In this document: piece by piece, positions 4,294 through 46,000 of the stretch | How positions within the stretch are numbered: position 1 is the stretch's first letter | How the letters are laid out: each line of letters begins with the position of its first letter | DNA from: a virus | IMG/VR virus record: IMGVR_UViG_3300043399_000215 | Location: 1-54,799 of that record | Strand: one strand, 5' to 3' | DNA: 54,799 bases | Notes under the pieces: model-generated | Databases searched by the model: none | What the model saw: the letters and a program-made list of their open reading frames with translations, nothing else | Told to the model about the DNA's origin: nothing | Position numbers and translations under genes: made by a program

Positions 4294-4458
4294 TTAACTA
4301 TTAGTCCTGACTTGCTCTACCACAGCCAACAGATTGTTTTGAATCTCAGGGCTTGACCATTGCAGATTATACACTTCTTTTTGTTCTTTACCAAGGTATC
4401 TTGCAATATAGTCCCCTTGTATAAGACAAAGTTGAATATCTTGAATAACTTGAGGCAT
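4294..4458 (-). CDS. Small hypothetical protein, 54 aa
   Basis: Not recognised. It begins MPQVIQDIQLCLIQGDYIARYLGK, helical. GAAGAAGGG lies upstream, within the coding end of the preceding gene. Its start shares one base with the preceding stop (TAATG), indicating coupled translation. Confidence 0.65.
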   Translation of the reverse strand: MPQVIQDIQLCLIQGDYIARYLGKEQKEVYNLQWSSPEIQNNLLAVVEQVRTNS

Positions 4459-4598
4459 TAAAACAACCCTTCTTCAATATCTGACAAGTCATGCTTGGTA
4501 GGTTTGAACTTCTGCTCAAGCAAGGCTTTGCTTTCTGATGTTCTTTCACTGTTGACTACAGGAAAAGGCCAGTTTGTAGGTTTGTCATCAGGTTTCAT
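4458..4598 (-). CDS. Small hypothetical protein, 46 aa
   Basis: Not recognised. It begins MKPDDKPTNWPFPVVNSERT and ends DLSDIEEGLF, probably largely unstructured with an acidic end. The start has GGAG upstream and overlaps the preceding gene by four bases (ATGA), so it belongs to a translationally coupled set spanning 4294-4952. Confidence 0.6.
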   Translation of the reverse strand: MKPDDKPTNWPFPVVNSERTSESKALLEQKFKPTKHDLSDIEEGLF

Positions 4599-4744
4599 TC
4601 TTCTCCGCGCTTTTGCTTGCGTTGCTTCTCGTAGTCCTGCTTCTTGTCTTTCTTTTGTTTCTTATCTACAGGTTCTTCGTAACCAGCATCATCCCAATGA
4701 CTTCGTTTGTTAGTCTTCTTGGTCTGAAAGTAACTGCTTTGCAT
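4595..4744 (-). CDS. Small Lys/Gln-rich basic protein, 49 aa
   Basis: Not recognised. It starts MQSSYFQTKKTNKRSHWDD and the C-terminal half is a run of Lys, Gln, Asp and Arg, a low-complexity basic tail. The start at 4744 is chosen because GGAGAATAAA lies directly upstream. The longer frame to 4855 runs antiparallel to no signal and overlaps the preceding gene. Confidence 0.6.
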   Translation of the reverse strand: MQSSYFQTKKTNKRSHWDDAGYEEPVDKKQKKDKKQDYEKQRKQKRGEE

Positions 4745-4745
4745 T

Positions 4746-4952
4746 TTATTCTCCAACTGCTTTAGCTTCGGTAAACACACCGTCACGGATGATTCGGATT
4801 GATTCTTCAGATAGCTCCCACTTCGCTCGCTCGACAAGATCACCATGTTCGTCACGCAGTAACGCTAGGCACAACTCGTTTTCAGTCATCGGTCGGTGCA
4901 GCGTTATCGTTTTGTCGTGTGTGTTGATCGTGTAGCTTTTTTGTTGTTTCAT
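4746..4952 (-). CDS. Hypothetical protein, 68 aa, in a GC-richer island
   Basis: Not recognised. It begins MKQQKSYTINTHDKTITLHRP and continues with a helix-rich acidic part. The start is set by GGAGAATAAAAGC upstream. Codon composition is more G+C-rich than genes on either side, as in its neighbour at 4957-5259, suggesting both came from another phage or host. Confidence 0.65.
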   Translation of the reverse strand: MKQQKSYTINTHDKTITLHRPMTENELCLALLRDEHGDLVERAKWELSEESIRIIRDGVFTEAKAVGE

Positions 4953-4956
4953 GCTT

Positions 4957-5259
4957 TTATTCTCCAGTTGCTTTTGCAATGGCTGCAAGGGCTTCAATAA
5001 CGTCAGGGTGCTCTTTGTGTAGTTCGCTTGGGAACGATTCGGCCATGTTTGCAAGAGCCTGTAGAGCCTGCAACAAATCAGGCGCAGCGGCAATCAGACG
5101 GGCGTTGGCCCGCCTTTGGTCAGTATCCAGACCGCAGACAGCATCAACAATGTCTAACCCGCGTCCCTTATCACCAACGTCCATGTGAACACAGAAGCTG
5201 GTTGATCTTCCAAGGTATTGCCCGACTTTCCAAGGCCCTGGTGTGTGCTGTGTTTTCAT
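4957..5259 (-). CDS. Phage accessory protein with HTPGPW and NARLIAAAPDLL motifs, 100 aa
   Basis: The N-terminal MKTQHTPGPW and the segment ANARLIAAAPDLLQALQAL identify a small accessory protein widespread in phages and prophages of Proteobacteria. Its function is unknown. The start at 5259 follows GAGGAATAAA. The upstream extension to 5406 is out of context and overlaps another good gene. It is G+C-rich compared with the region, consistent with transfer. Confidence 0.75.
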   Translation of the reverse strand: MKTQHTPGPWKVGQYLGRSTSFCVHMDVGDKGRGLDIVDAVCGLDTDQRRANARLIAAAPDLLQALQALANMAESFPSELHKEHPDVIEALAAIAKATGE

Positions 5260-5260
5260 T

Positions 5261-5431
5261 TTATTCCTCGTACTTAGTTGAAAGGTAGTTGTTGAACTCA
5301 GTGCTGTAATCATAACTCGAAAACTCATCAAAATCGTAGTCTCTGATGAAAAAACTTTCTTTTTTCTCTTTCTTGCTGGGTTTTTTCTTTTCTTTACAAC
5401 CTTCAAGAGTTTGCTTTTGCTTTTCCTGCAT
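5261..5431 (-). CDS. Small lysine-rich hypothetical protein, 56 aa
   Basis: Not recognised. The first half is strongly basic (runs of Lys and Glu) and the second half is acidic and tyrosine-rich, so a charged, probably extended protein. The ATG follows GGGAGGTAAAGGTG. It overlaps the end of the upstream gene by 29 bp and ends one base before the next start. Confidence 0.6.
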   Translation of the reverse strand: MQEKQKQTLEGCKEKKKPSKKEKKESFFIRDYDFDEFSSYDYSTEFNNYLSTKYEE

Positions 5432-5990
5432 CACCTTTACCTCCCTTCATTGGTACAGCTATGATTCTATCATGCTCGAACATATCCCAATTATACCTCA
5501 ACAAAGCATGAGTTTTCTTGAACCTGAATATCCATTCTGTAATAATAAAGTTACTCAAGCTGTTTTTCATTGTCGTGATTTCACTGGCTGTCAGCGTACC
5601 TTTACCACTGGCAAGGCATAGCAGCATACCCATTAGCAGCAAATCCTTGTACATCTGCTCTTGCTCTACCTTGCTGAATATTACGCTGCCTGTATCTTTG
5701 GTTTCAACAGCAGATACTACACCATTGAGCATGTTTACTTCCATGTCACTCAAGGTACTGAAGTAATACCCAAGAGTAAAGTAAGGTTTATAGGTCAACT
5801 CCATAGCTACTTTTTTAACAAAATCAGGTAAGCCTTTGGCTTGCAGTACCTTACCTAAATCAATGTTATACAAGTTACTTACAATTTCTTCTTTCTCAGG
5901 TTGAATCAACCTTTGATGTTCAAGCAAGTGCAGTTCTTGTACTTTCAGGAAAGCCCATTTGTTTAGATCATACGCTTCGTTTTCATTCAT
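5403..5990 (-). CDS. Hypothetical helical protein, about 195 aa
   Basis: Not recognised. A mostly helical protein without membrane segments or clear catalytic motifs, ending in a Gly/Lys/Ala-rich tail (MKGGKGDAGKAKANS). The reading frame is open to 6068 with weak upstream signals. ATG at 5990 has AAGG eight bases before it and avoids a 50-bp overlap with the HU-like gene, so it is preferred with some doubt. Its position directly after the HU-like gene suggests co-expression. Confidence 0.65.
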   Translation of the reverse strand: MNENEAYDLNKWAFLKVQELHLLEHQRLIQPEKEEIVSNLYNIDLGKVLQAKGLPDFVKKVAMELTYKPYFTLGYYFSTLSDMEVNMLNGVVSAVETKDTGSVIFSKVEQEQMYKDLLLMGMLLCLASGKGTLTASEITTMKNSLSNFIITEWIFRFKKTHALLRYNWDMFEHDRIIAVPMKGGKGDAGKAKANS

Positions 5991-18587: not shown

Positions 18588-21500
18588 ATGAAGTACAACG
18601 GTTTTTCAATTGACATTGAAGCAGATGGTTTTGTGTTTGAAGCAACAAAGATTTGGGTTATCAACTTGGAAGACCTTGACACAGGTGATAAGTTGCAGTT
18701 GCATCCATTCAGAGACTCATTAGCAAAATCAAAGCTGCTGGATTGGGTTTCTAAGTACGATAACCCAAATGTCTGTTTTCACAATGGCTTGGGCTATGAT
18801 ATTTTTGTGCTTATGTTTATTCTCGGAATTGACTACTCCGTTGGCCCAGATAGTATTGAAGGTATTAAAGTAAATTTTGTTGATACTTTTTATTTGTCAA
18901 TGTTTCTTAACCCAGACCGTGAAAAGCACTCTATTGAATATTGGGGTGTTCAACTTGGAATGCCTAAGATTGATTTTCGTGATGCCTTGATCTCTGTTGG
19001 TGCGCTAGATTCCAATGCTCCCAATGGAGCTGAATTTTTGCGTTTCCACTCTATCATGAATGAGTATTGTGAGCGTGACACTCTTGTTGGTAAACTGACA
19101 TTTATTGCACTAATAAATGAGTGGGTTGAGTTGTACAAATCATGGGATTGCACAAAGTGGCCTGAGCATTTTAAAGCCGGTCAAAAAGCCTTCTACCTAA
19201 TGTCTTGCCAAGAATTGTCAGGTTGGAAATTTGATGTAGATGCTGCCAAGGAATTGCAAATCAAAATTGAACAAATGATGGAGGAGATACGTTCAGAGGT
19301 TGAACCTCAACTACCACCACGGAGCCTTAAAAAAACAGAAGAAAAAGAATACTCCATGCCAGCAAAGCCATTCAAACAAGATGGTTCTCTTTCTGCTGTG
19401 ATGGAAAAGTGGATTGCAAAGCATAGTGCAACTTATGATACAGAGAAAGATTGTATTACAGTCTACGGTAAGCAATACAAGATTGTTGCAAAGCAAATGC
19501 TTGATATTAAACTTCCAATGGAAATGGCAAACCAAGATCAGATGAAGGATTGGTTTTTGGAGCAGGGATGGAAACCTACCTTGTGGAATTATAAGCGCGG
19601 CCCTGATAACAAGCCAATACGCGACCCCGTTACTAGACAGCTTATCCCGACAACGCCAAAGATTCAAGAAGCAGGGAAACTCTGCCAGAACCTAGAAAAA
19701 ATTGAAGGCGATCTTGTCAAGAAAGTTGTCAAGTGGTTGTCACTTCGCAATAGGCAGTCTGTTTTGAATGGTTGGCTTGAAAACCCAAGGTTGCAATATG
19801 ATGGACGGATAGGTGCTGGTAGGACTGGTATTGCAGCTACACACCGACAAAAACACAAGGTCGTTGTTAATGTGCCAAAAGCAGACCCGAAGGTGCTACT
19901 TGGCTATGAATTTCGGTCACTTTGGATTACTGAGGATGGTATGTTAATTGCTGCTGGGGATGCTGCTGCACTTGAAGGTAGGGTTCAAGGGCACTATACG
20001 CACAAGTATGACAATGGCACCACTGCTGATGAATTACTGAAGGGCGATGTGCATAGTAAGAACGCTAATGCTTTCTATGGTGGCATTTATGATGAAGTCA
20101 GTAAAATATACAATGCACCTGATTTTGACAAGGAAAACCCAAAATGGAAACCGTACCGCAATAAAAGTAAGAACGGATTTTATTGCTTGCCGATGCATAC
20201 AAAGGTGTTGACAAGTGCAGGATGGAAGCTGTTTGGTGATATAGAGGTTGGTGAAGCATTGCCAACTTTTAATGCAAATACAGGTCTTGTCGAAATGGAT
20301 GCAGTTAAAGCGTTGCATCATTTCGATGACACTGAAGTATTTAAATTCAGTAACAAGTATGATTCGTTTCAATGCACTGAGAATCACCGCTGGTATGGAT
20401 GGAGGCGTTCAAAATCCAAGAAAGGCTCTAAGAAGATTTTTGGATACTTTGAAGCCAAGGATTTTACACAGGAGCATAACTTATTATTGACTGCTGCATT
20501 TACTGGCAATGACGGATGCACAATAAATGAAACAGAGGCTAAATTTATGGGGTACTTACTCTCAGATGGTTCCTACAAGTGGTCAGATAAGTCAAGCACT
20601 ACAAGTTCATCTTTCGGTAAGAAGAAGGCAATTTCAATGCAGGTTTGTCAATCCAGAAATAAGTTTTGGGAGGATATTCAAAATCTAATTGATGCTCTTG
20701 GAATGAAATACAACTTGCGTGAAGAAAAGAAAGAGAATGGGAATAATGTACTTCACTGGAAAATATCTCAACCTGACGCAAGGAGTTTCATAGACAGGGT
20801 TGTTGGGAATAGGCTTAACAAGCATGAAGTTAACTGGTCTGAGTGGGTTATGAAACTTAGTAGGAAATCTCTAGAGGCTTTCTACGAGGGCTTCTATAAC
20901 GGAGATGGTAACACCACTGGAAATCACGAGGTTGTCTCTCAGAATACTGGTAAAGTGCATGAAGGTATTGTCACGGCAATGCAACTGCTTGGGAAAGGTC
21001 GCGTTACCTTGAACAATCATCAAGGGTGGAAAGATAATATCTGTCAAGGCATACGGGTTCAGAAGCGTAAGCATCTGACCATGCAAGAGCAGTCAAAGGA
21101 GTCACTTGGAATTCAAGAGACTTTCTGCTTGACAACAGGGAACTCATCGTTTATTATTTGGCAGGATGATTTTATTGGGATTACAGGGAACTGCATTCTC
21201 TACGGCGGTGGAGCACCGAAGGTTGCATCTACTCTTGGTATTCCAGAAAAATACGGTAAAGAGGCTTTGGAGGCTTTCTGGGAGGCAAACCCAGGCACGA
21301 AAGACTTGAAGGAAAACCTTGAAAAATACTGGGAAGGTGCAGGTAAGAAGAAGTACCTCCCAGCCATTGATGGTAGAATCCTAATGACTCGTAAAAAATC
21401 AGCTTTACTGAATACTATATTTCAAAGCTGCGGCGGCATAACAATGGATTACGCTGGATGTTTTATGGACAAGTGGCTTGGGGGGATGCAGTGGGATGAA

Positions 21501-21713
21501 AAACGTAGGCCCTTCTATTTATACAAGGGTTTTACCGTAAGGAGGATTGGCTATATCCACGACGAATTGGAATATGAGTGCGATGCTGAGATTGCTAATG
21601 AAGTTGCCGGAATGATTGAAAAATCTATTGCAAAGGCAGGTGAATATCTTGGAATCAAAGTGCCACTTGTCGGTGAAGGTAAGGTTGGTAAAAACTGGAA
21701 AGAAGTTCACTAA
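18588..21713 (+). CDS. Family A DNA polymerase (T7 gp5-like) containing an intein
   Basis: The replicative polymerase. The 1,041-residue reading frame holds a 336-residue intein (residues 533-868), leaving an extein of 705 residues, almost exactly T7 gp5 size. The 3'-5' exonuclease motifs are SIDIEADGF, HNGLGYDIF and EYCERDT. Polymerase motif A is AAGDAAALEGRV, motif B is RNKSKNGFY joined to CILYGGG after splicing, and motif C is IHDELEYECD. The intein interrupts motif B, so activity depends on splicing. GAAAGGAAGGT precedes ATG. T7 gp5 uses host thioredoxin as processivity factor; the phage thioredoxin at 32870 could play that part here (inference). Confidence 0.95.
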   Translation: MKYNGFSIDIEADGFVFEATKIWVINLEDLDTGDKLQLHPFRDSLAKSKLLDWVSKYDNPNVCFHNGLGYDIFVLMFILGIDYSVGPDSIEGIKVNFVDTFYLSMFLNPDREKHSIEYWGVQLGMPKIDFRDALISVGALDSNAPNGAEFLRFHSIMNEYCERDTLVGKLTFIALINEWVELYKSWDCTKWPEHFKAGQKAFYLMSCQELSGWKFDVDAAKELQIKIEQMMEEIRSEVEPQLPPRSLKKTEEKEYSMPAKPFKQDGSLSAVMEKWIAKHSATYDTEKDCITVYGKQYKIVAKQMLDIKLPMEMANQDQMKDWFLEQGWKPTLWNYKRGPDNKPIRDPVTRQLIPTTPKIQEAGKLCQNLEKIEGDLVKKVVKWLSLRNRQSVLNGWLENPRLQYDGRIGAGRTGIAATHRQKHKVVVNVPKADPKVLLGYEFRSLWITEDGMLIAAGDAAALEGRVQGHYTHKYDNGTTADELLKGDVHSKNANAFYGGIYDEVSKIYNAPDFDKENPKWKPYRNKSKNGFYCLPMHTKVLTSAGWKLFGDIEVGEALPTFNANTGLVEMDAVKALHHFDDTEVFKFSNKYDSFQCTENHRWYGWRRSKSKKGSKKIFGYFEAKDFTQEHNLLLTAAFTGNDGCTINETEAKFMGYLLSDGSYKWSDKSSTTSSSFGKKKAISMQVCQSRNKFWEDIQNLIDALGMKYNLREEKKENGNNVLHWKISQPDARSFIDRVVGNRLNKHEVNWSEWVMKLSRKSLEAFYEGFYNGDGNTTGNHEVVSQNTGKVHEGIVTAMQLLGKGRVTLNNHQGWKDNICQGIRVQKRKHLTMQEQSKESLGIQETFCLTTGNSSFIIWQDDFIGITGNCILYGGGAPKVASTLGIPEKYGKEALEAFWEANPGTKDLKENLEKYWEGAGKKKYLPAIDGRILMTRKKSALLNTIFQSCGGITMDYAGCFMDKWLGGMQWDEKRRPFYLYKGFTVRRIGYIHDELEYECDAEIANEVAGMIEKSIAKAGEYLGIKVPLVGEGKVGKNWKEVH
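20184..21191 (+). mobile_element. Intein with LAGLIDADG-type homing endonuclease in polymerase motif B
   Basis: 336 residues. Block A is CLPMHTKVLT with Cys1, and block B is CTENHRWY with the TxxH motif. The endonuclease motifs are FMGYLLSDGS and FYEGFYNGDG, two LAGLIDADG-like dodecapeptides with the catalytic Asp. Block F/G is SSFIIWQDDFIGITGN followed by +1 Cys. The penultimate residue is Gly where His is usual, a known natural variant. Both extein junctions fall on codon boundaries (TAT/TGC at 20184, AAC/TGC at 21192). Confidence 0.92.
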
Positions 21714-22017: not shown

Positions 22018-22194
22018 ATGAAGCCTTGGTGTCTGTGGTTGATAAAAAACCATCTAGGATGGTTGTTGAAAGCAATAATAGTTATGTCATATCCGGTGCA
22101 TCTACTGGCGTACTGCGAAGAAGCATGGGATGACATTTCGTATGTTCTCCGTGAAGTTTATTATGAAAAAGAATATATACAGAAAGGCTCATAA
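22018..22194 (+). CDS. Small hypothetical protein, 58 aa
   Basis: Not recognised. It begins MKPWCLWLIKNHLGWLLKAI, a Trp/Leu-rich hydrophobic helix that may associate with membrane, followed by an acidic, Tyr-rich end. AGGAGATTATTC precedes ATG. Confidence 0.6.
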   Translation: MKPWCLWLIKNHLGWLLKAIIVMSYPVHLLAYCEEAWDDISYVLREVYYEKEYIQKGS

Positions 22195-22389: not shown

Positions 22390-22584
22390 TTGAATTACCA
22401 GAACTTCAATTATCACTACTCTCAAGAATTCAAATGCTTGATTCAGACAGATGCTGAAGGTAAAGTTGTGATGGCAATGTACATGCCTGCTGAAGACTTA
22501 GAGAAAGTATCTTTCCTTGCTTGGGTACAATCAGCAGAAAATAATTTTGAGAATCTTGTAAAAGATGAAGAGATTATGCTATAA
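22390..22584 (+). CDS. Small hypothetical protein, 64 aa, TTG start
   Basis: Not recognised. The sequence FKCLIQTDAEGKVVMAMYMP suggests strands, then an acidic helix. TTG at 22390 follows AAGGAGAATAAAG. The promoter for the RNA region lies inside its last codons (-10 at 22580-22585). Confidence 0.55.
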   Translation: MNYQNFNYHYSQEFKCLIQTDAEGKVVMAMYMPAEDLEKVSFLAWVQSAENNFENLVKDEEIML

Positions 22585-22585
22585 T
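22556..22585 (+). promoter_or_regulatory. Promoter for the structured RNA region
   Basis: TTGTAA (22556-22561), an 18-bp spacer ending in TATGC, and TATAAT (22580-22585). Predicted start near 22592. It sits in the end of the preceding gene, directly before the structured non-coding region. Confidence 0.65.
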
Positions 22586-22683
22586 GCGAATATAGAGGCA
22601 GTGTAGCACGCTGCAACTCAGTACTGAGATTGAGTACCAATCGGGTGCAAAGCCTGTCCAGTTGTGACTTAAGTGTATTTAGT

Positions 22684-22756
22684 CCGCGCATGGTGAAAAT
22701 GGAGATCACACAAATCTTCTAAATTTGGAGTCCTTGTTCGATTCAAGGTGTGCGGA
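22684..22756 (+). tRNA. tRNA-Arg (anticodon UCU)
   Basis: Full cloverleaf. The acceptor CCGCGCA pairs with TGTGCGG (one G-U). U8; D stem GTGA/TCAC with loop containing A14 and GG; anticodon stem CAAAT/ATTTG with loop CTTCTAA, anticodon TCT at 22718-22720; four-base variable loop; T stem CCTTG/CAAGG with loop TTCGATT. Discriminator A22756; no encoded CCA. It reads AGA codons, frequent in this A+T-rich genome. The 13 bases before it pair with the 13 bases after, so it sits inside a longer helix. Confidence 0.93.
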
Positions 22757-23000
22757 CTAAGTACATTTTAATTCAGCTTGATGGGTTGCCCTGAGTGCCT
22801 AGCACGAGGGAAGGTCTGGTAAACTACATGCCGTTGCACTCATAGTGCAGAGGGGCGGTAGACAGGCGGCAGCAACGCTGTAGTATCCTACGCAGCAGCT
22901 TGTTTACAGCGAGGCGTTTGTCTGAAAGTGCTTCTGTAATAGCACTCAAGAACTAACCTGTTGCATCGTGAGAGCAACGCCGGATTCTAGTAACCGGCAA

Positions 23001-23084
23001 CTATATTGAAATACTCTATAAAACATCGTCAAGGTTAGGGTTGCTCCAGTTCTAGGTAAAAACCTTTAGAGTATTTCAATATGG
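23001..23084 (+). repeat. 18-bp stem-loop, copy A of a shared stem
   Basis: The arms 23001-23018 and 23067-23084 pair fully (one wobble). The core TATTGAAAT/ATTTCAATA is shared with copy B, and both right arms continue into ATGGTAAAT. The loop of 48 bases holds an inner AAGGTT/AACCTT pair. Confidence 0.75.
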
Positions 23085-23149
23085 TAAATTTATCAAGATG
23101 TACTACCAGATTTATTTTAGTAGTACAGCTAAAAGTAAGTAAGATTTGT

Positions 23150-23157
23150 GTTATAAT
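23150..23157 (+). promoter_or_regulatory. Second -10 inside the RNA region
   Basis: TTTGTGTTATAATG, with TATAAT at 23152-23157 and TG-T before it. It could start a shorter RNA of about 280 nt or the mRNA for the SSB gene. Confidence 0.5.
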
Positions 23158-23343
23158 GAGTTTGTCCCGCCACGCTTGTTACTCTATATCCCTATGGAGC
23201 CAGCAGCACACTTCGGTGAACCGCACTCACAGCGGTTGGTTAAAATAGAGTAACGAGTTGCGTCGTTACCTACGGATTTCTAGCATGAGGGTCGTCGCCC
23301 GATAGTAAGAAGACTATGGAACCCAGCTTTAGGGAGTTGGGTG

Positions 23344-23434
23344 CCATATTGAAATGCACTAGATTTCTTTTATACTGTGCTGGACGTACTAAGCCACAGG
23401 CGGTATAGATTCCTTTTAGTGTATTTCAATATGG
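23344..23434 (+). repeat. 18-bp stem-loop, copy B of a shared stem
   Basis: CCATATTGAAATGCACTA (23344-23361) pairs with 23417-23434, one G-U. The loop carries an inner helix, TATAC-TGTG with CACA-(bulge)-GTATA. It ends 66 bp before the SSB start, so it may also be a processing site in the SSB leader. Confidence 0.75.
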
Positions 23435-23499
23435 TAAATCAAGTCTTGTTGGAGACTTTAATAACCAACAAATGTTTAACTCAAGAAAGGAAATTGAAT

Positions 23500-24111
23500 A
23501 TGAAAACTCTTAAAGGTACTTTGGTTTATGTAATGCTGGATAAGCCTCGTAACTGCTACGACGAAGCCAAGGGGCAAGAGTGGAAATGCGGTATTGTAGT
23601 GGATGAAGACACAGCAGATGCTTTTGCTGAAATTTACCCAAAGCAAGCTGCTAAGAAAGTTAAAATCGCAGACTTTGAAGAAACTTATAAGTGCAAGCCT
23701 CCAGAGGGAGCAGGTAAGAACGTTTATGTGATTACCTTGCGTAAGAATACAAAGTTGGCTAATGGAGAACCGGTCCCGGATAAGTACAAACCACGAGTGT
23801 TCCAGCGTAAAGGTGGTGCATTGGTTGATATTACAGCAACATCACTACCTGCTAATGGTTCAACTGGAGAAATCAGTATAGACCATTATGATGGGAAAAT
23901 GGGTGCTGTAGCTCGATTGAAGAACGTACTGGTAACTGACCTGATTGAATTTGAGCGCAGTAATTCAGCTTCTTACGAATCAGGTGACGAATTCGCAGAC
24001 GATGGTTCTGGTGACTCTGTCAAGGTTCCAGCCAAGGCTGTAGCTGCTGCAAGCAAGTCCAAGAAAGCTGTCCCTGCTTTGGATGAAGATGATGGTGATT
24101 CACCCTTCTGA
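23500..24111 (+). CDS. Single-stranded DNA-binding protein, T7 gp2.5-like
   Basis: 203 aa. An OB-fold-like beta-rich body (TLVYVMLDKPRNC, NVYVITLRKNTKL, RVFQRKGGALVDIT, GAVARLKNVLVTDLIEFER) is followed by an Ala/Lys linker and an acidic tail ending in DEDDGDSPF. An acidic tail with terminal Phe is the hallmark of T7 gp2.5 and contacts polymerase and helicase. ATG at 23500 follows AAAGGAAATTGAAT; the longer frame from 23377 starts inside hairpin B. It lies in the replication operon after the RNA region. Confidence 0.85.
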   Translation: MKTLKGTLVYVMLDKPRNCYDEAKGQEWKCGIVVDEDTADAFAEIYPKQAAKKVKIADFEETYKCKPPEGAGKNVYVITLRKNTKLANGEPVPDKYKPRVFQRKGGALVDITATSLPANGSTGEISIDHYDGKMGAVARLKNVLVTDLIEFERSNSASYESGDEFADDGSGDSVKVPAKAVAAASKSKKAVPALDEDDGDSPF

Positions 24112-43038: not shown

Positions 43039-46000
43039 TTAAGTAGCAACCCTAGTTGCTATAGCATCACCGTCAGGTGTAACTCTTTCGAGTATCTTAG
43101 CTGTCTTGGAAGTCCAAGAAACGTTAGCCTGCATTTCATATCTAAGATTTACAATCTCTTCTTTCAATGCTTCAACAACCGCTTGCAAGTCAGAAGAACT
43201 ATTGGTAACAGATTCAGAGATACTACTACCAGCAGAACTAGAAGCTACCGGAGCAGAGTTAAGAACTTCAGGTGCAGCGGCTTGCATATCGGAATTACCC
43301 AACAACTTGTTGATTACACCAGCACGAAGTCTCTGTAGTTCAAGTAAACTACCTACATTACTTTCAGCAAAATCTAGCAAGGCTTTACTATCTTCTACAG
43401 AACCTGACTTATTGAACTGCGCCATCAGTACAGCAAGAGAATTACCTTTTGAATCAGCAGCAGCTATATTTCTTATTCTGTTAACTTCTTCAATAATCCC
43501 ATCTGACATTTGAGCATAAGAACCTATCACATAATCCTGAAGATTCATCAAATCAGCAACTACTTGGGTATTGCCAAGTTTCTGCTGTTCAGTTACCAGA
43601 GTTCTAAATTCACTCATTGACTTGGGAAAGGTGATACCTAGTTTAGCAAAGGCATCGGTTCCTTTTTCAATGTAGTTCGTTACTCTTTCTTGTTCTGAGT
43701 AGAAGTTCTGATAGTATTTACTTAGCTTAGAGTTGGCAGCATCAAGACCACCTAATGCAGCAATGAAGTTCTCTGCCGCTGAATATCCAGCAAGACTGAA
43801 CTCATTGAGTTTCCAGCCAAGGTCTTCAAAGACTTGGTTAGTATTACCAATAACATCACTAAGTCTCTTTAATGTAGAGGATGATTTCTCACCTTCTTTT
43901 TGAAACTTCTTCCAATCCCCAAGAGAGTTTAAAGCAGTGCTAGCAAGGCCTTCAGTTAATTCATCCAAGATACCTTTATAGGCTTCAGGGTCAGCAAGGC
44001 TTTGTCTGATTTCTTTTGTAAAACCATCAAGAGCATTTGCACCAACACCCAGAGTCTTTGCAGTATCAAGTACACCAGCTTTAATCAAGTTAAAGTCGTT
44101 GGCAATAGCTTGTCTTTCGGATTCATCCAAGGCAGACAGAGAGGTAGTGTTACCCTTGAACCTCAAGAAGCCATATTTCTTGTCAGTATATTCTTGACCT
44201 TCAAAGCCAGATGCACCACCGAAAGTACCTTGAATACCTGTTGTAGTTTTACTACCGAAGGCTCTGTTGGTAAGACCACCAAGAGCACCACCAACAGCTG
44301 CACCGATTGGGCCAGCAATAACTGCACCGATAGCTGTACCTAGGTTAACTGCTGTATTACCAGACGAACCACCCATTGCTGAATAGCCATTGGATATAGC
44401 ACGACCTGCGTAGTGCCCTGCAACAGCACCTGCTGCGTAACTCGCCCCGGTCATACCAGCACCACCACCAGTAGCACTAGAACCAGTAGTCGTACCAATA
44501 GCTGTTGTACTAAATCCAGCTTCTTGCATAGCAAGAGCAATAGATTGGCTAGACATTGCAGATGTACCGTAGGTTGCACCAGATGCAATGCTACCAAGAC
44601 CAGCAGCACCTGTAAGGGATGTAGCTGCATTGTACATACTAGCTGCACCTGTAACACCATTCATTAGACTACCAGCAGAACCTCCGGTTTGCATACCAAT
44701 TGCTTGTAGCAAGAGGTTAATACCAGTACCAAAGATTTCATTAACAACTACGTTTACATAAGTTGTAATGGGTTTACGGATTGCTTCTACAAGCATATCA
44801 CGAAGTTTCTTACGTCCTGCTTTACCACCTTCAAACAATGCTGTTACAATGCTGTCGGTTATACCACTGGATATTTTATTAAACTCGTCAATATAAGCCT
44901 TAGCAGCTTTGATTGCTGATTCTTTGTTGATTAAATCAATCTCACCAGCAGCCACTTTCTGGGCTTTACCCAGAGCATCAGCGTAGTCTTCAGGGTCTGT
45001 TATATTCTTCTTTATGTTAGCTTCTGTTTCTGCCAATTTTACATTAACAGCAAGTATAGCTTGTTGCTTCTTATATTCTTCCGTTAGTTTTTCTTGTTCA
45101 TCAGAACTTTTACCTAGGATTGAATACTGAAACTCAAGGTCTTTGACTTGGTTTTGCAAAGCAGCATCTTGTTGCTTGATGTTTTCTGTAACATTCTCAT
45201 AAGCCTTTGCAGAATCTACTAATCCTTTTAGGATAATGTCACTATCTGCTATTCTTTTCTTTTCTATAGCAATTAGTTTTTCCTTGGCATCGGTTTCAGA
45301 AAGGGCTTGTAGCACTCTGAATTTAGCAGAAGCATCCAGTTGTTTCCACTGAGGGTCATCCAGAATATCAAGTCTTAGTTTCTCAGCTTTGGATAAACCA
45401 GAAGTTGCTTCAAGCATTTCTTGGTATTCTGACTTCACAGTAATACCTAGGTCACGAACCTTTTCTTCTGTTTTTCCTAGGTACTTTAACAAGGGATCTT
45501 CTTTTGCTTTTTTATCGTCGCCTAGAATAATCTTCTTCCAACCTACAAGTGCTTCAGCAGCTTTAGCTTGAGATATGATACCCTTAGCCACATCACGTTC
45601 AAGTTCAGCTTGCTTGATCGCAAACTGCTGTTCTTTTGTGAGGGACTTCTGCAATGCATTTGAGTTCTTTATTTCCCATTCGGAGTATTCAGTATTCTTG
45701 CGCTTTACATCACCCTTTTCTTTTTCCTTGTCAATCGTAAGTTGATGTGAGTCAACAATCTCTTTCAGATAAGCAAGTTCTTCTTTGTAAGCAGCTTCGG
45801 TTTGATACCAGCTTGCACCCTCTTGTACTCTTTTAGCCAAATCACCCTGAGCATTTTTAAGCTGTTCTACAATGCTACCTTTACGCCCTACATTGAGTAT
45901 GCTATCCCACATGGATTTAGCACCTGCTGAAATAGCATGAAAGAATGTCTCCAAAGCACCACGCTCTGCTACCAAGTTACCAACAGAATTCTTCATAGCA

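Follow-up and report, generated by a model that had tools for sequence, protein, structure and literature searches.

Positions 22592-23440 of a 54.8-kb virus record (hereafter the window, meaning the whole stretch of 54,799 nucleotides that was analyzed) probably form a modular non-coding RNA locus with two transcription units. In the most likely arrangement, the first unit runs from promoter 1 through a leader, a tRNA-Arg with an extended acceptor stem, a central fold and a motif that we call M1 to a long hairpin, H1, and the second consists of promoter 2, domain K (23163-23352) and a long hairpin, H2. Domain K is a previously uncatalogued RNA family common to dozens of related viruses, modeled here as a compact RNA of ~190 nt with a predicted loop-loop pairing and a second pseudoknot. 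Computation demonstrates the division into modules, the structure of K, the retention of an alternative pairing, and the presence of K in more than one phage lineage.

Organization of the locus

The region is flanked by a small ORF, whose last position is 22584, and by a gene that begins at 23500 and that we call SSB-like from its position and from the annotation in one relative. An earlier sequence-only reading had described about 850 nt without genes, and this description holds. Only short and overlapping ORFs occur within 22592-23440, and we argue that the region is non-coding because indels (a 34-nt insertion and 1-nt deletions) separate the window from a 94%-identical relative, L002; such frame-breaking changes between close relatives led us to reject a coding function. 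The same reading had noticed dense structure, elevated G+C and a tRNA-Arg, all of which were borne out. Positions 22586-23450 fold at -309.5 kcal/mol, compared with -243.5 +/- 8.8 for shuffled sequences (z -7.5; 0/20), and the two halves of the region, folded apart, give z values of -6.3 and -5.4. The G+C content of the core is 0.44-0.49 against 0.38-0.40 in its surroundings. The features of the first unit, together with both candidate promoters, are as follows.

22556-22585, plus strand: promoter 1, candidate (TTGTAA, 18 nt, TATAAT, extended -10), from a promoter search
22595-22661, plus strand: leader domain of three hairpins, with loops GAGAUUG and UGCAAAG (model R2, E 5e-19)
22670-22683, plus strand: 5' strand extending the tRNA acceptor stem, pairing with 22756-22769 (sequence, fold)
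22684-22757, plus strand: tRNA-Arg(UCU), CCA not encoded (tRNA call; Rfam tRNA, 53.7 bits)
22757-22772, plus strand: 3' strand extending the tRNA acceptor stem (sequence, fold)
22776-22956, plus strand: central folded region, otherwise seen only in the close relative L002 (fold)
22833-22897, plus strand: second, divergent M1-like copy, of which 33 nt (22865-22897) are 85% identical to the M1 of L054-type phages
22958-23000, plus strand: M1, 43 nt, a GUUGC/GCAAC helix followed by a GCCGG-A..GUAA-CCGGC hairpin (pattern, alignment, model R3)
23001-23084, plus strand: long hairpin H1 (fold; same basal stem near tRNAs in L010 and L028)
23149-23157, plus strand: promoter 2, candidate, an extended -10 box TGTTATAAT (sequence), which the earlier reading had not noted

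The proposal that the RNA has its own promoter stood in part. A promoter-like site does end at 22585, and -10 boxes occur at the equivalent place ahead of the leader in L002, L106, L113, L115 and L164; with 3 promoter-like sites across the region and 2.6 in shuffles, the bare pattern is not above chance. The case for promoter 1 as a putative start site rests on its position and on the matching boxes in relatives. K begins just past a promoter-like site both in the window and in L152, where TTGACA-17-TATAAT occupies the place equivalent to promoter 2. For most K copies no dedicated promoter is evident.

The region had been read as one giant RNA with an embedded tRNA, and as either a member of GOLLD or ROOL, a distant relative, or a new class of similar design. 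It is probably not one RNA, because the second -10 box TGTTATAAT directly precedes a separate conserved domain. Among relatives, the leader, M1, K and the long hairpins are found separately and in varied combinations. Nor does membership of the known families hold: cmscan gave no match to GOLLD, ROOL, OLE or raiA in the region at E<=10 or at gathering score, or in four relatives at E<=1. Group I intron models from Rfam gave no match at the same E values, and the region has no credible Rfam match other than the tRNA. What survives of the earlier reading is a structured, tRNA-linked phage non-coding RNA, and the last of its three options, a new class found in such a setting, comes closest.

The resemblances are nevertheless worth setting out. 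GOLLD is a large folded phage RNA found near tRNAs and sometimes containing tRNA sequence, with loop-loop pairings, and ROOL is a phage-borne RNA near tRNA islands with several pseudoknots (PMC12286853). Like GOLLD, our locus is phage-borne, adjoins tRNA genes and is folded, with loop-loop complementarity in K; the phage setting near tRNAs and the pseudoknots are also likenesses to ROOL. GOLLD is a continuous transcript, often >800 nt, with a universally conserved 3' region; a second -10 box and separable modules argue against such a transcript here, and the conserved part of our locus, K, is ~190 nt. ROOL differs from the locus in size and layout. It has a conserved intermolecular kissing loop, and both it and GOLLD form RNA-only multimers; the conserved complementary loops of K might pair within a molecule or between molecules. 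That the whole 850 nt is a single RNA of GOLLD or ROOL type, into which the tRNA is inserted as a domain and which multimerizes by kissing loops, is in our view very improbable. Its size, phage setting and tRNA linkage would suit such an RNA, and the conserved complementary loops could equally pair between molecules, but there is no Rfam match, the modules are separable and recombined in relatives, the K of L152 starts at its own promoter-like site, and the central region lacks wider conservation.

Structure and alternative pairing of domain K

The features of the second unit downstream of promoter 2 are given below.

23163-23352, plus strand: domain K, a new structured RNA family (model R1, built without the window, E 1.6e-24)
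23189-23194, plus strand: K loop UCCCUA, 5' side of the loop-loop complementarity (alignment pair counts)
23259-23261, plus strand: second pseudoknot of K, 5' side UGC (alignment pair counts)
23283-23285, plus strand: second pseudoknot of K, 3' side GCA (alignment pair counts)
23315-23319, plus strand: strand X (UAUGG), 5' arm of helix 9 (strand comparison)
23330-23335, plus strand: K loop UAGGGA, 3' side of the loop-loop complementarity (alignment pair counts)
23344-23348, plus strand: strand X' (CCAUA), common to helix 9 and H2 (strand comparison)
23344-23434, plus strand: long hairpin H2, alternative to helix 9 (fold, strand comparison)
23430-23434, plus strand: strand X2 (UAUGG), 3' arm of H2, identical to X (strand comparison)

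The structure of K was drawn from 13 relatives, with the window excluded, and made into model R1. This model matches 37 places in 67 sources (the viral loci searched), among them the window and, at E 2e-34, Limnohabitans phage DC31, and finds one K copy in each of eight tested records that have K. Covariation in related phages, which the sequence-only reading had proposed as a test, proved to be strong. The model alignment has 95.5% of its pair cells paired, and slid versions of the helices pair only 34-40%. Changes on both sides affect 34 of the 52 pairs and 226 cells, where shuffles give 61 cells (0/500), although related sequences can beat shuffles without structure and an alignment fitted to nested helices leans the counts their way. 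On a plain MAFFT alignment of the 13 sequences, 94.5% of cells are paired, with 19 pairs changed on both sides (0/500).

The two pseudoknots are a cleaner test because they were left out of the R1 model. Loops UCCCUA and UAGGGA are complementary in every K sequence (one with a G-U); their near-invariance is consistent with a predicted pairing and gives no covariation. The second pseudoknot covaries, with UGC/GCA, GGU/ACC, GGC/GCC and AGU/ACU. Relative to L002, H2 and M1 are unchanged, whereas K differs at many positions.

The 3' arm of helix 9 doubles as the 5' arm of the long hairpin after K, so that helix 9 and H2 cannot form at once. A downstream strand complementary to X' is present in all 35 loci with enough sequence, in most cases lengthening to 13-21 bp, and the three strands vary in concert (ACUAUAA/UUAUAGU/ACUAUA, AGUAUAA/UAUACU/AGUAU and, in the window, UAUGG/CCAUA/UAUGG). 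When the downstream sequence was shuffled 200 times, no more than 4 shuffles did as well in 34 of the 35 loci; L105 was weak, at 12/200. Since the tip of the long hairpin differs between loci, its stem is the conserved part. H1 and H2 have a common basal stem, which recurs near tRNAs or tRNA-like sequence in L010, L028 and L152, and over 78 nt H2 shares 79% identity with a hairpin from the L028 tRNA array.

Modules in other phages

By protein, the nearest named phages are Limnohabitans phage DC31 and Curvibacter phage P26059A. With the window region as query, a DNA search of 50,697 phage records returned only a tRNA match, and with the L028 hairpin as query a search of phage records returned none. 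Matches to the tail ATTTCAATATGGTAAAT were mostly unrelated and apparently coding, and only those in L010, L019 and L028 were informative; matches of a hairpin-tip pattern in L046 and L047 were set aside as chance. A search of viral contigs with the SSB-like protein found a 97%-identical protein in L002, with DNA 94% identical over the region, and the alignment of this protein led to 54 loci. In these loci tRNA-Arg(UCU) is common, often with a non-coding gap of ~350-900 nt nearby, and many have one conserved block, K, soon after it. A pattern search on the first hairpin of K added further loci.

The gene after K varies, being SSB in the window, a DUF7275 gene directly downstream in most relatives, and tRNAs in L101 and in L158, where K is situated within a tRNA array. 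The DUF7275 gene, which includes part of DUF7277 (L120 2732-3544; L048 7562-8374; L003 from 6935; L049 10644-11468), carries a GS...DWD motif reminiscent of nucleotidyltransferases, and no copy of the gene was found in the window record. K is also present in L152 (59 kb) and L153 (68 kb), both without a match to the helicase or the SSB-like protein of the window, although these records may be incomplete and the absence of genes is suggestive only. The K of L152 is 81% identical to that of the window, promoter region included, a likeness that suggests exchange between phages. A small upstream ORF in L152 resembles, by eye, the ORF at window position 22018. Past K in L152, on the minus strand at 4300-5500, long hairpins whose basal stems are related (CCATATTGAA...TTCAATATGG) follow one another, together with degenerate tRNA-like sequences, none of which ARAGORN called as a tRNA.

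In the cultured phage DC31, K occupies PQ492658.1 44969-45156, within an unannotated gap (44883-45274), and is preceded by an unannotated tRNA-like sequence with the anticodon region TCTTCTAAA. K was not found in P26059A (L049, KY981271.1). After its SSB gene this phage has an unannotated non-coding stretch of ~950 nt (L049 9654-10644), which lacks K and contains M1, tRNA-Arg(UCU), several long hairpins and a fold resembling a tRNA whose acceptor stem is extended. Elsewhere in the window, 18588-21713 encodes a 1041-aa DNA polymerase matched by polymerase profiles in two separate parts, and the middle (CLPMHTKVLTSAG...GITGNC) looks like an intein.

Model R2 placed the leader ahead of tRNA-Arg in L106, L113, L115 and L164, which belong to its training set, and in L154 and L172, which do not; the L172 copy is a near-duplicate of that of L106 and scores equally. 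The tRNA-Arg has 0 substitutions in 74 nt relative to L002, and several relatives encode the CCA, unlike the window. In the searches run, no Rfam 15 family matched K, the leader or M1, and a keyword search of open-licence full texts found no description of any of the three.

M1 is a second uncatalogued motif (without an Rfam match), spread over many phages. Across 12 representatives every pair cell is paired and both sides have changed in 5 of the 10 pairs, but part of the M1 sequence was fixed by the patterns that gathered it, and the strongest point is the unforced coupling at a single pair (17 C-G, 13 U-A, 2 U-G). Model R3 matches phages outside its training set at E values of 1e-5 to 2.5e-8. 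One M1 pattern matched 43 viral stretches and a stricter one matched once in ~85,000 bacterial and archaeal genomes, a contrast that is only indicative, given two different patterns and a set of 43 that includes duplicates or probable chance matches. The motif occurs also in L003, L049, L053-L059, L061, L064, L065, L068, L069, L073, L081, L083, L093, L095 and L153. It recurs in many apparently unrelated phages, often between a stop codon and the next gene or near tRNAs, and it is found outside tRNA clusters as well. An ops-like sequence, GGCGGTAG, stands at window 22854-22861 and upstream of M1 in L055 and L059, which could be chance; in three unrelated groups it precedes M1 by 72-120 nt, against about one occurrence per 60 kb in the loci at hand.

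The two-hairpin form of M1 recalls HK022 put, a two-hairpin phage RNA that acts on elongating RNA polymerase in processive antitermination (PMC9378689). M1, and perhaps K, might likewise modify the polymerase for readthrough of a folded array. In P26059A and L003, M1 lies 35-60 nt past a -10 box, shortly after a promoter-like site and ahead of such an array. However, M1 is not a put sequence, and elsewhere it sits between genes with no promoter in view; of the explanations weighed here this one has the slightest chance. M1 as HK022 put itself was rejected: putL lacks the M1 core, and the M1 model has no match in the HK022 stretch.

Possible roles of domain K

We give roughly an even chance to a locus of two units in which K is an autonomous non-coding RNA of the phage, produced next to tRNAs, matured via the alternative hairpin, and acting in trans or as a scaffold. 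K would fold during transcription, and helix 9 would close the hairpin that bears UAGGGA. After H2 is synthesized, its longer stem would capture the 3' arm of helix 9, and this strand exchange, with cleavage in the long stem by RNase III or E, would release a stable RNA, while RNase P and a CCA-adding enzyme would mature the tRNA. Within the infected cell, the released K may then serve as a scaffold or act in trans. Here we infer the transcript ends, the processing, the direction of the switch and the action in trans, as well as the function of K. By analogy, GOLLD, ROOL and RNAs C and D of T4 may serve as a model for the accumulation of K beside phage tRNAs. The T4 RNAs (species 1 and 2) are stable non-tRNA RNAs directly after tRNA-Arg(UCU), a layout like that of tRNA-Arg(UCU) followed by K. 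They were rejected as K homologues, as R1 with filters off gave only a chance match in the T4 tRNA cluster, outside rnaC and rnaD.

The main rival is a cis-acting switch of riboswitch or attenuator type, which we regard as possible and distinctly less probable. K would sense, helix 9 and H2 would switch, and the next gene would be the output, whether SSB in the window or, in most relatives, the DUF7275 gene with its nucleotidyltransferase-like motif. The conserved, mutually exclusive pairing adjoins an expression signal, as in the usual expression platform of a riboswitch, K has a compact pseudoknotted fold, and a Shine-Dalgarno sequence follows 2-6 nt past H2 in most relatives. This tight spacing, with K directly upstream of the same gene in most relatives, favors the cis switch and counts against an autonomous RNA. 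Also counting against an autonomous RNA are the lack of a terminator-like site on the plus strand at the 3' end of the region and the paucity of K promoters, through which most copies would be co-transcribed with the tRNA. Yet H2 neither covers the Shine-Dalgarno sequence nor precedes a U-run, and the link between K and DUF7275 is largely explained by common gene order. The varied downstream neighbors, including the tRNAs around K in L158, fit K as an RNA of its own and, with the separate promoter-like site, favor the autonomous RNA over the cis switch. The alternative pairing is equally at home in both.

The modules might instead be spacers and processing hairpins of tRNA operons, serving only RNase recognition and RNA stability. 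Between phage tRNAs in L010, L028 and L152 there are indeed recurrent long hairpins whose tips are interchangeable, but we think this explanation quite unlikely, as it leaves unexplained the two pseudoknots, invariant loops and covariation of K and the occurrence of M1 outside tRNA clusters.

GOLLD and ROOL are precedents for phages having elaborate RNAs beside their tRNA genes, and K is an independent family in a similar setting. More than one phage lineage carries it, beside tRNA-Arg(UCU) and in tRNA arrays. More speculatively, and with rather low confidence, K may be a new class of RNA machine of several phage lineages, in which the invariant loop-loop pairing joins molecules and co-transcriptional strand exchange with the hairpin gates their assembly. 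At ~190-290 nt, K is small enough for ordinary structural work, and its presence in a cultured phage-host pair, that of Limnohabitans phage DC31, makes tests of expression, knock-out and partners possible. That one strand keeps a conserved choice of two partners offers a concrete, testable mechanism.
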